Source of the DNA: Secundilactobacillus hailunensis | Lineage (GTDB): Bacteria; Bacillota; Bacilli; Lactobacillales; Lactobacillaceae | DNA: 52,454 bases | Direction of reading: 5' to 3' | NCBI RefSeq assembly: GCF_005405185.1 | Contig: NZ_BJDO01000015.1 | Span: forward strand, 1-52,454 | Translations under genes and position numbers: made by a program | The notes under the pieces: generated by a model | Seen by the model: only the letters and a program-made list of their open reading frames with translations | Database searches by the model: none | Told to the model about the DNA's origin: nothing | Shown: in pieces, positions 15,058-19,447 of the stretch | How positions within the stretch are numbered: the first letter of the stretch is position 1 | Layout: the number at the start of each line of letters is the position of its first letter

Positions 15058-15345
15058 AAAAAAAGCCTCCGCCCCATGTTACTCGGGACGAAGGATTCGC
15101 GTTACCACCTGAAATTTACTTGAACCTCACAATTCAAGCCTTGATAAGTACAATAATGACACTGTTATACTCCGCAAGATATCGATTGCTGACGGACTGG
15201 GTAGCACGGGTCGTGGTTGACCTACCCCCAATCAGGCTCAGAGATCATCTTCAGTTAACTGGTTTTGACTGCTTCTCATCCACCGCAGCTCGCTTAACAA
15301 AACGTGGTAACTTACTCTTCTCTTCATTGCTTAATTATTAGATTA
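15058..15345 (-). promoter_or_regulatory. T-box riboswitch, Met-type, for metI-metC
   Basis: The leader contains the conserved T-box core AGGTGGTAACGCG (complement of 15098-15110). After it, CCTTCGTCCC and GGGGCGGAGG (with G-U pairs) form the terminator, followed by seven T (complement of 15058-15064). Stem I precedes, and the likely specifier is ATG (complement of 15246-15248) in GAAGATGATC, a methionine codon followed by a purine. This matches a tRNA-Met-sensing antiterminator for methionine synthesis genes. The specifier choice is inferred from position and context. Confidence 0.93.
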
Positions 15346-15943: not shown

Positions 15944-16141
15944 AAAAAAAGACGCCCCATCACTGGAACGCCCATACAGCCACTTAGCCGAAACTAAATG
16001 GGTTCTCAAAAATCCACATTTCCTTTGAACCAAGGCAGCCGCAAATCCGGCGGTGTTACATTGCCTGCTGTGCAAAAAATCACCTAGTTGCTTGCGCAAA
16101 CTACTATTGCTAGTAGCGTGATATTCTCGACTCATCGCATG
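15944..16141 (-). ncRNA. strongly structured RNA of about 197 nt, class unknown
   Basis: A promoter at 16148-16176 and a terminator at 15951-15972 with seven T (complement of 15944-15950) delimit this minus-strand transcript. Helices (plus coordinates): 16118-16122/16079-16083 closing two hairpins, 16111-16116/16101-16106 with loop GCAA and 16096-16099/16088-16091 with loop GCAA; 16062-16066/16033-16037 enclosing 16050-16053/16039-16042; 16027-16031/16001-16005; 15994-16000/15981-15987; and the terminator stem with loop GTGA. Three of the loops are GNRA type. A 68-codon frame on the same strand has no credible ribosome site. It is not a recognisable 6S, tmRNA, RNase P or SRP RNA. Confidence 0.6.
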
Positions 16142-16147
16142 TAAAAC

Positions 16148-16176
16148 ACTATAGCACGGATTCCGGGCAGAAGCAA
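16148..16176 (-). promoter_or_regulatory. promoter of the structured RNA
   Basis: TTGCTT (complement of 16171-16176), 17 bases and TATAGT (complement of 16148-16153). It begins 14 bases after the stop codon of the gene upstream, so the RNA may be independently transcribed rather than only a 3' UTR. Confidence 0.65.
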
Positions 16177-17285: not shown

Positions 17286-17320
17286 AATCGGGCTGCACTA
17301 GGCAGAGACTTGCACCTAAG
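17286..17320 (+). repeat. truncated copy of the TAATCGGGCT hairpin repeat
   Basis: AATCGGGCT, nine bases, then GCAGAGACTTGCACCTAAG resembles the left arm of the element at 33384. The right arm is absent. Its CCTAAG part overlaps and provides the stop codon of the lipoate ligase gene (CTA at 17316-17318). Confidence 0.6.
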
Positions 17321-18326
17321 CTAATAGTTCCACTAACTCATTCTTCTTAATTCCCATGAAGTACTGACTAATATCCACATCAGCCAACGCCTTTTCCAGG
17401 TTTTCACGGTCATAGCGGATACCCTTTAATTGATCAGCTAATTCACTGACATCCTTTGGGCCAAAGAAGTCGCCGAAGAATTTAATATCTGAAATCTTAC
17501 CCTGTTCAACTAAGATCCGGGCATCAATAGTACCGGAATCAAAGTGTTGACGCTTCTTGACCGTAAATTCTGGTGAAGTGCCGTAGACCCAGTCCCAGTT
17601 GTTGTAGTACTGTTCGTAGATCTTGTCGATTTCTTTTTGTTCATCAGGGGTAACCACGTATTCCTTATCCTTGATTTTATCCAAACTATCCACGTGGAAC
17701 AGTTCCTTTAATAACTTATCCCGGAATTCTGGTACCGTAATGTTTTGATATTCAGGCGCCAAGTACGGCTTCAAGTTAGTCACCCGTGAACGCACTGACT
17801 TAATGCCCTTTGAAGCAATCTTATCTTCGGGCACGCTCAGCGCATCCGCAATCACGTTTTGATCCACGTCCAGCATCAACGTCCCATGTGAGAACGTCTT
17901 ACCGTTTTTGGTATACATGGCGTTACCAGAGAATTTCTTGCCGTCAACTAGAATGTCGTTACGACCAGAGACTTCTACTGAAGAAGCCCCCATATCATGT
18001 AACGCATCAACAATCGGCTGTACGAAGGACTTAAAGTCCCCAAACTGTTCTGAGTTGCTGTCTAGTACAAAGCTGAAGCACAGGTTACCAAGGTCTTGGT
18101 AAACCGCACCGCCACCAGATAACCGACGCGTCACCGTGATGTTGTGTTCTTCAACGTATTTTTGATTGATTTCTTCTAGCGTATTTTGGTTGCGACCAAC
18201 AATGATACATGGTTTTTCATAATAGAACAGTACCAGTGGCTCACCAAAATCTTTATTGTTCATTAAATATTGTTCAGTAGCCAAGTTACGGCCGATATCG
18301 TGGGCCGTCATAGAAACATACCGCAT
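17316..18326 (-). CDS. lplA: lipoate-protein ligase, copy 1
   Basis: Activates lipoate with ATP and attaches it to lipoyl domains of dehydrogenase complexes or GcvH. It has 336 residues. The catalytic-domain motifs RRLSGGGAVYQDLGN and GRNDILVDGKKFSGNAMY (with the lysine) are present, followed by a C-terminal accessory domain ending near residue 336. The start at 18326 (MRYVSM) is preceded by AAGGGAAG and aligns with the paralogue; the open frame upstream adds 33 unrelated residues. It stands 111 bases downstream of a close full-length paralogue, a tandem duplication. Confidence 0.92.
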   Translation of the reverse strand: MRYVSMTAHDIGRNLATEQYLMNNKDFGEPLVLFYYEKPCIIVGRNQNTLEEINQKYVEEHNITVTRRLSGGGAVYQDLGNLCFSFVLDSNSEQFGDFKSFVQPIVDALHDMGASSVEVSGRNDILVDGKKFSGNAMYTKNGKTFSHGTLMLDVDQNVIADALSVPEDKIASKGIKSVRSRVTNLKPYLAPEYQNITVPEFRDKLLKELFHVDSLDKIKDKEYVVTPDEQKEIDKIYEQYYNNWDWVYGTSPEFTVKKRQHFDSGTIDARILVEQGKISDIKFFGDFFGPKDVSELADQLKGIRYDRENLEKALADVDISQYFMGIKKNELVELLA

Positions 18327-18436
18327 GTCCAAACTTCCCTTCAGAATATGAAATAGCAATCTTGTAACGATTTTCATTTTACCATAACCATGAAAGGGGT
18401 TACAGCTTGTGCACTTGGAAAACACTCATTTCGCTG

Positions 18437-19447
18437 TTAACCTAAAAATTGCACAAACTCATCCAGGGTAATACCAGCAAAATAATCACCCACGTTGATC
18501 TTAGACAAGGCTTTCCGCAACGATGGCTGATCATAACGGACACCCTGCAGCATCTTCGCCAAATCAACGGCATACTTCTCACCAAAGAAATCACCGAAGA
18601 AGGTCACTTGTTTGATCCGGCCCTTTTCTACTAAAACACGTGCATCGATCGTGCCCGAATCAAAGTGCTGCCGCTTCTTAACCGTAAACTCTGGCGAAGT
18701 CCCGTAGACCCAGTCCCAGTTATTATAGTAATCATCGTAAAGCTTTTTGATCTGAGCTTTATCCTCATCAGTAAGGTGATAAGCTTTATCAGCAACTCGT
18801 GCGAGATCCGTGACGTTATAGACTTTGCGTAAGATCGTGTCCCGAAATTCCGCAATGGTCAGGTTTTGATATTCTGGTTTTAGATAGGGCCGCAGATTCG
18901 TCACCCGTGAACGCACTGATTTGATTCCCTTGGAAGCAATCTTATCCTTCGGTACATTTAAAGCGTGCGAAATCACACTTTGATCGACGTTATACATCAA
19001 TGTCCCGTGAGAAAACATTTTATTATTTTTCACGTACATCGCGTTACCAGAAAATTTCTTGCCGTTAACTAGAATATCGTTCCGGCCAGAAACTTTGATG
19101 GAGGTTGCCCCCATTTCTTTTAAGGCTTCCACAATGGGTTTGGTGAAGGATTTAAAATCCCCAAACCGTTCATCGTCACGATCAACCACGAAGCTGAACG
19201 ACACGTTACCCAGATCGTCATAAACCGCCCCGCCACCGGAAAGTCGCCGGGTGACCTGAATGTTATGCTTAGCCACGTAATCCTGATTGATTTCTTCTAG
19301 GGTATTTTGATTACGCCCCACAATGATGCATGGTTTTTGATAGTAAAACAGTAAAATCGGTTCATCAAAATCTTTATTATTCATTAAGTACTGTTCGGTT
19401 GCTAGATTATACCCAATGTCTTCTGTTTCCATATTGTAATAGTACAT
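18437..19447 (-). CDS. lplA: lipoate-protein ligase, copy 2
   Basis: Same length (336) and clearly similar to copy 1 over the whole sequence, including RRLSGGGAVYDDLGN and GRNDILVNGKKFSGNAMY. GAAGGAGTGG precedes ATG at 19447. TATAAT about 40 bases upstream (complement near 19490-19495) may be its -10. Two intact ligases suggest different targets (for example lipoyl domains versus GcvH) or substrates, but no lipoylated complex is encoded in the window. Confidence 0.92.
   Translation of the reverse strand: MYYYNMETEDIGYNLATEQYLMNNKDFDEPILLFYYQKPCIIVGRNQNTLEEINQDYVAKHNIQVTRRLSGGGAVYDDLGNVSFSFVVDRDDERFGDFKSFTKPIVEALKEMGATSIKVSGRNDILVNGKKFSGNAMYVKNNKMFSHGTLMYNVDQSVISHALNVPKDKIASKGIKSVRSRVTNLRPYLKPEYQNLTIAEFRDTILRKVYNVTDLARVADKAYHLTDEDKAQIKKLYDDYYNNWDWVYGTSPEFTVKKRQHFDSGTIDARVLVEKGRIKQVTFFGDFFGEKYAVDLAKMLQGVRYDQPSLRKALSKINVGDYFAGITLDEFVQFLG

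Follow-up and report, generated by a model that had tools for sequence, protein, structure and literature searches.

A Lactobacillales small RNA family with two elements complementary to the peptidyl transferase center of 23S rRNA

The RNA gene and its architecture

The window, i.e. the whole stretch of 52,454 nucleotides that was analysed, carries a gene for a structured RNA, and all features reported here sit on its minus strand. The first-pass annotation named no strand for this RNA; its features are real and the length of about 197 nt holds, but all of them belong to the minus strand. The minus strand folds at -65.6 kcal/mol (z -2.57, with 2 of 200 shuffles equally low), and the fold of the plus strand is no better than its shuffles (z -0.21). 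The elements are listed below with the evidence for each in brackets.

16171-16176, minus strand: -35 element TTGCTT (coordinates and family upstream profile)
16148-16153, minus strand: -10 element TATAGT (coordinates and family upstream profile)
15944-16140, minus strand: the RNA, about 197 nt, with predicted start at A16140 and end in the T-run 15950-15944 (RF02840 match, terminator, A at -1)
16127-16140, minus strand: single-stranded, conserved 5' end AUGCGAUGAGUCGA, which complements 23S helix 90 (pairing and survey)
16079-16122, minus strand: P1 three-way junction (Rfam model, folds, covariation)
16117-16100, minus strand: hairpin P1a, within the P1 junction
16099-16088, minus strand: hairpin P1b, within the P1 junction
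15976-16071, minus strand: 3' domain, closed by helix Pc 16071-16067/15980-15976 (folds, covariation)
16033-16066, minus strand: P2 hairpin with a CGGAUU-type loop (Rfam model, covariation)
16001-16031, minus strand: P3 hairpin (folds, covariation)
16013-16019, minus strand: P3 loop AUGUGGA, complementary to the 23S helix 89 loop UCCACAU (pairing and covariation)
15981-16000, minus strand: P4 hairpin (folds, covariation)
15944-15973, minus strand: intrinsic terminator with loop GTGA and seven T (sequence and terminator scan)

Positions 16139-16009 match the Rfam family RF02840 (Ref68/Lacto-3) with 83.6 bits against a cut-off of 44 (E 2.6e-16). The match is complete, covering positions 1-124 of the 124 in the model, and it is the sole family match at gathering scores in the whole window. 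The earlier view of the RNA as undescribed, which by its own terms was to fall with a match to a known Rfam family, is thereby refuted. On the other hand, the RNA was described there as multi-branched, equipped with a promoter and terminator of its own and unlike 6S RNA, and this was borne out by the Rfam match, the fold energy, the upstream profile and the covariation described below. Like 6S RNA it is bacterial and structured and has its own signals for start and end of transcription, but it is branched and not a rod, and the Rfam scan of the window at gathering thresholds, where only Ref68 scored, gave no 6S match.

The promoter TTGCTT-17-TATAGT proposed earlier is present in the sequence, with 17 bases between the two elements (16176-16148), and agrees with the upstream profile of the family; a consensus promoter scan, however, found no site there, the promoter being too weak for such a scan. 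In the family profile (137 distinct upstream sequences) T is favored at -36, the -10 region is TA-rich, and A occupies -1 in 91% of the sequences. Given these preferences, transcription probably starts at the predicted A16140. The terminator hairpin with its GTGA loop and seven T was confirmed at 15973-15950, where it ends the RNA.

The region was also correctly judged to hold no credible protein. An open reading frame of 68 aa (16135-15929) was rejected as coding: its ATG lies inside the conserved 5' motif, and this start is lost in the 21 of 133 genomes that have C at motif position 6. In one streptococcal locus (L074) the same frame, followed by eye, ends after 15 codons. A leaderless AUG-CGA-UGA minigene was likewise discarded, since the A at -1 is not universal and is missing in several streptococci.

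The three-way junction seen earlier (16118-16122/16079-16083) corresponds to P1 of the Rfam model. A second junction, which had gone unmentioned, was obtained by folding single members of the family with only the 5' motif held unpaired: helix Pc (16071-16067/15980-15976) encloses P2, P3 and P4. The Ref68 model ends at 16009, and Pc, the outer helix of P3 and P4 lie outside it. Fold tests were made with 62 representatives clustered at 85%, counting minimum-energy folds alone. In 39 of the 62 the helix enclosed exactly three branches, P3 being the second, and in 48 there was a junction of at least three branches including P3, the junction being missing from the minimum-energy folds of 14 native representatives. 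Chimeras made of halves from different members gave 12 of 600 and 33 of 600 by the same two measures, and shuffled halves 0 of 300 and 8 of 300. Left out of the fold tests were sequences with no recognised terminator (11 of 166, two of them chance matches), sequences of more than 228 bases and identical sequences; chance pattern matches in Pseudomonas (L112), Phycisphaerales (L121) and Lentibacillus (L126) were removed before counting.

The covariance analysis of relatives that had been proposed for this RNA revealed compensatory, double-sided changes. In an alignment from the genus of the window (A1; 11 sequences, 10 distinct), 99.0% of the cells pair and 13 of 48 pairs have changed on both sides, as compared with 31-46% pairing in slid controls; by one of five measures, the number of further pair types, there was no excess (20 against 22.5 in shuffles). 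Among 52 distinct sequences, 94.6% of the cells pair and 47 of 48 pairs show double-sided changes (slid controls 35-50%), in an alignment that was made by the model and hence is biased towards the structure. In these alignments the 3' domain beyond the Ref68 model covaries.

The two GCAA loops of the first-pass annotation are both present (16110-16107 and 16095-16092, minus strand), but the family does not conserve them: elsewhere TTCG, TTTT or other loops are found. The suggestion that GNRA loops dock into receptors is therefore unsupported. The conserved parts of the family are instead the 5' single strand and the P3 loop, both of which are complementary to 23S rRNA.

Distribution and the two Rfam entries

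Genomes were sampled at three levels: Ref68 matched 262 of 301 from the family of the window, 223 of 395 from the order and 8 of 299 from the class, all eight belonging to the window's own order; there is one copy per genome among the matches listed. The RNA is also present in G088, a genome of the same genus as the window, and on Secundilactobacillus kimchicus NZ_AZCX01000014.1, and it is conserved across seven families. Among 14 control genomes only Lactococcus lactis was matched by Ref68, below the cut-off, and there the asd model scored above its own cut-off.

The flanking genes vary between groups of genera, as expected for an RNA acting in trans. Two adjacent similar frames in the window (17316-18425 and 18437-19447, minus strand) resemble lipoate-protein ligases by eye, and a relative of these frames lies upstream of the RNA in 20 of 84 loci compared. 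On the same strand, a T-box leader at 15081-15336 (83.6 bits, below the Rfam gathering cut-off of 93) precedes a gene at 15011-13848 that by eye encodes a cystathionine-type lyase or synthase. In one streptococcal locus (L077) a tRNA gene (1659-1731) lies directly upstream of the marS-type gene.

At three streptococcal loci that were scanned, the places indicated by Ref68 proved to be RF01732 (asd/MarS), with 114-123 bits against a cut-off of 84; the streptococcal Ref68 matches themselves fell below the Ref68 cut-off. Conversely, the window RNA scored 25.7 bits with RF01732 (cut-off 84; E 0.0028 in a 231-base search). The architecture is nevertheless common to the two, as asd/MarS (SSRC21, SR914400 of S. 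pyogenes) shares with the window RNA the 5' motif, the 3' domain in which a closing helix surrounds three hairpins, and the terminator, and differs in that P1 is a single hairpin in the streptococcal RNAs and a three-way junction here. The Ref68 model, for its part, matches the window RNA over its full length but lacks the closing helix, the outer P3 helix and P4, all of which covary. MarS is reported as an mRNA regulator that activates mga, in contrast to the Ref68 entry, for which the Rfam line states no function; neither the RF02840 nor the RF01732 line names a clan.

The streptococcal names were traced through the literature and the DNA. SSRC21 is equated with SR914400 by its authors (PMC3675131), sRNASpy490957c is listed as SR914400 in PMC3542284, and PMC5613026 gives sRNASpy490957c as the former name of marS. 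Locus L230, an RF01732 locus, is the SSRC21 deletion site of S. pyogenes: of five primers given in PMC3675131, four are identical to it and the fifth matches with three mismatches at the expected side. SSRC21 is therefore the asd/MarS RNA.

Two covariance models served to connect the groups, R1 from the genus of the window and R2 from the 53 sources found by R1. R1 detected 53 of 86 sources at E up to 1 and 48 at 0.01 or less, each over the full model and one of them streptococcal (L080, E 0.0004). R2 matched 56 of 56 chosen loci, streptococci included, and 57 of 57, sets that partly consist of its own training rows (L080 is in the training alignment A2). It further matched 79 of 79 fresh loci pointed to by Ref68 and 19 of 19 more, as well as 15 of 28 genomes missed by Ref68 and 11 of 12 others. 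The 14 of these 40 genomes in which R2 gave no match are 13 of the 28 missed by Ref68 and G301, which Ref68 matched at E 3.9e-5. In six non-streptococcal genomes (G040, G306, G009, G048, G079 and G106) R2 and the asd model pointed to the same place, the asd score being below its cut-off. RF02840 and RF01732 are one small-RNA family of Lactobacillales that Rfam holds in two unlinked parts.

Complementarity to helices 90 and 89 of 23S rRNA

The 5' end TGCGATGAGTCGA, which was kept single-stranded in the folds, hardly varies within the family. When the window genome was searched for the complement of this motif, four sites with one mismatch came up besides the motif itself; one of the four lies in 23S rRNA, where the mismatch is a G-U pair. 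Including the start base A, AUGCGAUGAGUCGA pairs with the 23S rRNA of the window genome at 14 of 14 positions (13 Watson-Crick, one G-U) with -23.1 kcal/mol; 1 of 1000 letter-shuffled motifs equaled this on the same 2.1 kb of 23S, and the shuffled mean was -13.9. An antisense action of the motif on many mRNAs was considered and rejected, since its antisense sites are not enriched in the window genome (28 with at most two mismatches, against 52 for the reversed control).

The site corresponds to 2505-2518 of the 2903-base gene in the E. coli 23S record, or 2506-2519 in standard E. coli numbering. In the finished subunit this stretch (site A) is base-paired, as the 5' strand of helix 90. The P3 loop AUGUGGA, in turn, is complementary to 23S UCCACAU in the loop that caps helix 89, at about 2473-2479 by the standard numbering; this second site begins 33 bases upstream of the helix 90 site, in a stretch that folds as a hairpin. 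Both sites lie in the peptidyl transferase center and run colinear with, and antiparallel to, the RNA. A third pairing, of the P2 loop CCGGAUU with 23S GAUCCGG, was discarded: the loop differs between genera and the 23S side is constant, with the one form TCCGGYGGT in 50 of 60 genomes (in the other 10 the loose pattern struck other text).

The helix 89 site is variable, being GAGUCCACAUCG or GAGUUCACAUCG in these genomes, and this variation is followed by the P3 loop. The pattern was first noticed in 58 of 80 genomes, after which fresh genomes were sampled (60 of 79 with a 23S match, 43 of these 60 among the matches listed); the other 17 of the 60 were taken up again together with further genomes (33 of 36 with a 23S match). 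In all 133 genomes for which both sequences were available, with the P3-loop base read from model alignments A4-A6, the combination of P3-loop base and 23S base was G-C in 91 and A-U in 41, with no other combination. The one exception to the 132 matches is G009, which has lost P3: its RNA (L251, 1502-1608) is a degenerate member with the 5' motif kept and the hairpin gone, in a host whose 23S is of the UUCACA form. In the genus of G009 a simple scan of three further loci (L252-L254) found no UGUG loop.

On a 23S tree of 60 genomes, built with the sites masked, both letters change seven times by parsimony, and they do so together; the letters agree in 59 of 59 classifiable genomes. One switch lies inside a single genus (g22; G022 against G090, G222, G140 and G283), and the g22 and g23/g26 switches are nested in clades with support of 0.94 to 1.00, the other switches resting partly on weak nodes in a tree where several deep nodes are weak. 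Among 449 variable 23S columns, the one opposite the P3 base is alone in following the P3 letter perfectly; the next reaches 0.81, where the commoner letter alone gives 38 of 59, or 0.64. Conversely, no other of the 99 variable RNA columns (57 sequences) follows the 23S letter as perfectly as the P3 letter does, the next reaching 0.956. Shared ancestry, which these related genomes have, or drift in base composition would alter many columns. The complementarity has been kept by compensatory changes, and the energy gap between matched and unmatched P3 loops is modest.

The 5' motif shows a corresponding tendency. Position 6 and its 23S partner are C-G in 19, C-A in 2, U-A in 95 and U-G in 17 of the 133 genomes (Fisher p 2.8e-11, uncorrected for kinship among the genomes). 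Position 10 is mostly U, forming a G-U wobble where C would pair better. With wobble allowed, all 13 motif positions pair in 123 of 133 genomes. At least one position is unpaired in the other 10, namely both of g26, five of f5 (G10 opposite G), two with U13, and G537, in which the motif row is shifted by an insertion. In the g26 members (L081 and L235) the 5' motif is altered, so that two or three of its positions do not pair with helix 90 of the same genome, and their P3 loop still matches helix 89.

Possible roles of the RNA

From this covariation we consider a trans pairing of the RNA with 23S rRNA very probable. A full-text search of the open-access literature gave two papers, neither of which deals with such a pairing by its abstract, though it may have been reported elsewhere, and nothing relevant came up under the names Ref68 or Lacto-3; '23S' is absent from the main text of PMC5613026 and of PMC3675131. 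Three things appear to be new: that the 3' domain is conserved in RNAs of the Ref68 type, that these form one family with asd/MarS, and the comparative evidence, which we regard as strong, for pairing with the peptidyl transferase center.

The overall reading that we favor, and hold to be likely, is that one Lactobacillales family pairs in trans with two sites of the peptidyl transferase center, most likely during late maturation of the subunit. The unstructured 5' end AUGCGAUGAGUCGA would pair with the 5' side of helix 90 and the loop of P3 (UGUGGA or UGUGAA) would kiss the apical loop of helix 89 (UCCACA or UUCACA), so that the two antisense elements clamp both helices of immature 23S. The RNA may hold helices 89 and 90 apart, or check or mark them, thereby preventing misfolding, and would be displaced once the catalytic center folds. 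We infer an action on unfinished 23S because the site A strand forms helix 90 in the finished subunit, and pairing should therefore need immature or unfolded 23S. Taken for itself, a role in 50S maturation, while the catalytic center matures, seems to us about evenly balanced between being right and wrong.

A different outcome of the same pairing would be a ribosome inhibitor or hibernation RNA, which binds the exposed peptidyl transferase center of free 50S and lowers translation under stress. It would account equally for the 23S pairing data, and the higher tolerance of oxidative stress reported for the marS deletion speaks for it; it is unlikely, however, as helix 90 is already paired once the subunit is finished. 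The S. pyogenes RNA is reported to be highly stable after rifampicin (PMC2765633, PMC5613026), which speaks for a hibernation RNA as well, and to be dramatically reduced in late stationary phase (PMC3675131), which speaks against hibernation; stability together with this drop fits ribosome production better.

It is also rather improbable that the RNA is an ordinary trans-acting mRNA regulator, as MarS is on mga, with the rRNA complementarity as a by-product. MarS binds the mga 5' UTR in a gel shift, and a change of CC88-89, which lie in the P3 loop, abolishes the binding (PMC5613026); deletion of SSRC21, the same RNA, is reported to alter 142 transcripts. However, the heptamer UGUGAAC (82-88) that matches 23S ends with C88, and the CC88-89 mutant should therefore also weaken the rRNA pairing. 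A single mRNA such as mga, from a virulence regulator gene of S. pyogenes, does not account for an RNA conserved in seven families, the window genome shows no enrichment of antisense sites for the 5' motif, and the 23S match in 132 of 133 genomes with its unique column would be unexpected. Regulation of mRNAs may be an additional role, and need not exclude rRNA pairing.

There is little to recommend the converse arrangement, in which 23S rRNA is a sponge that buffers the small RNA and the pairing controls the availability of the RNA and not the ribosome: the pairing data and an rRNA that is far more abundant than any small RNA would suit it, but it does not need exact pairing at two sites kept through about seven co-changes, and site A should be hidden in finished ribosomes. 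A guide for rRNA modification, like box C/D or H/ACA RNA, would explain bipartite antisense pairing adjoining modified nucleotides of the center, but no box motifs were noticed and we know of no guide-dependent rRNA modification enzyme in bacteria, so that this is the least credible reading.

The most far-reaching form of the maturation reading is that Lactobacillales have a trans-acting RNA whose dedicated task is to assemble or proofread the peptidyl transferase center, a bacterial counterpart of the nucleolar assembly RNAs; we put this forward tentatively, as slightly more doubtful than maturation as such. The likeness to U3, U14 and snR30 of eukaryotes and archaea is that of a trans-acting RNA with antisense elements against rRNA; the window RNA differs in being bacterial, in its target and in that box motifs were not noticed, and it is not a member of these groups. 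The marS deletion is reported to grow normally in rich medium (1.09 against 1.11; PMC5613026); no general ribosome defect is thus known, which counts against an important role in assembly.

With the union of RF02840 and RF01732, two catalogue entries become one RNA family of a bacterial order, and the best-conserved parts of this family would target the catalytic heart of the ribosome. To our knowledge, it would be the first case in bacteria of an RNA acting in trans on the peptidyl transferase center by base pairing. If the reading is true, the phenotypes of marS deletion would be recast as possible side effects of ribosome biology.
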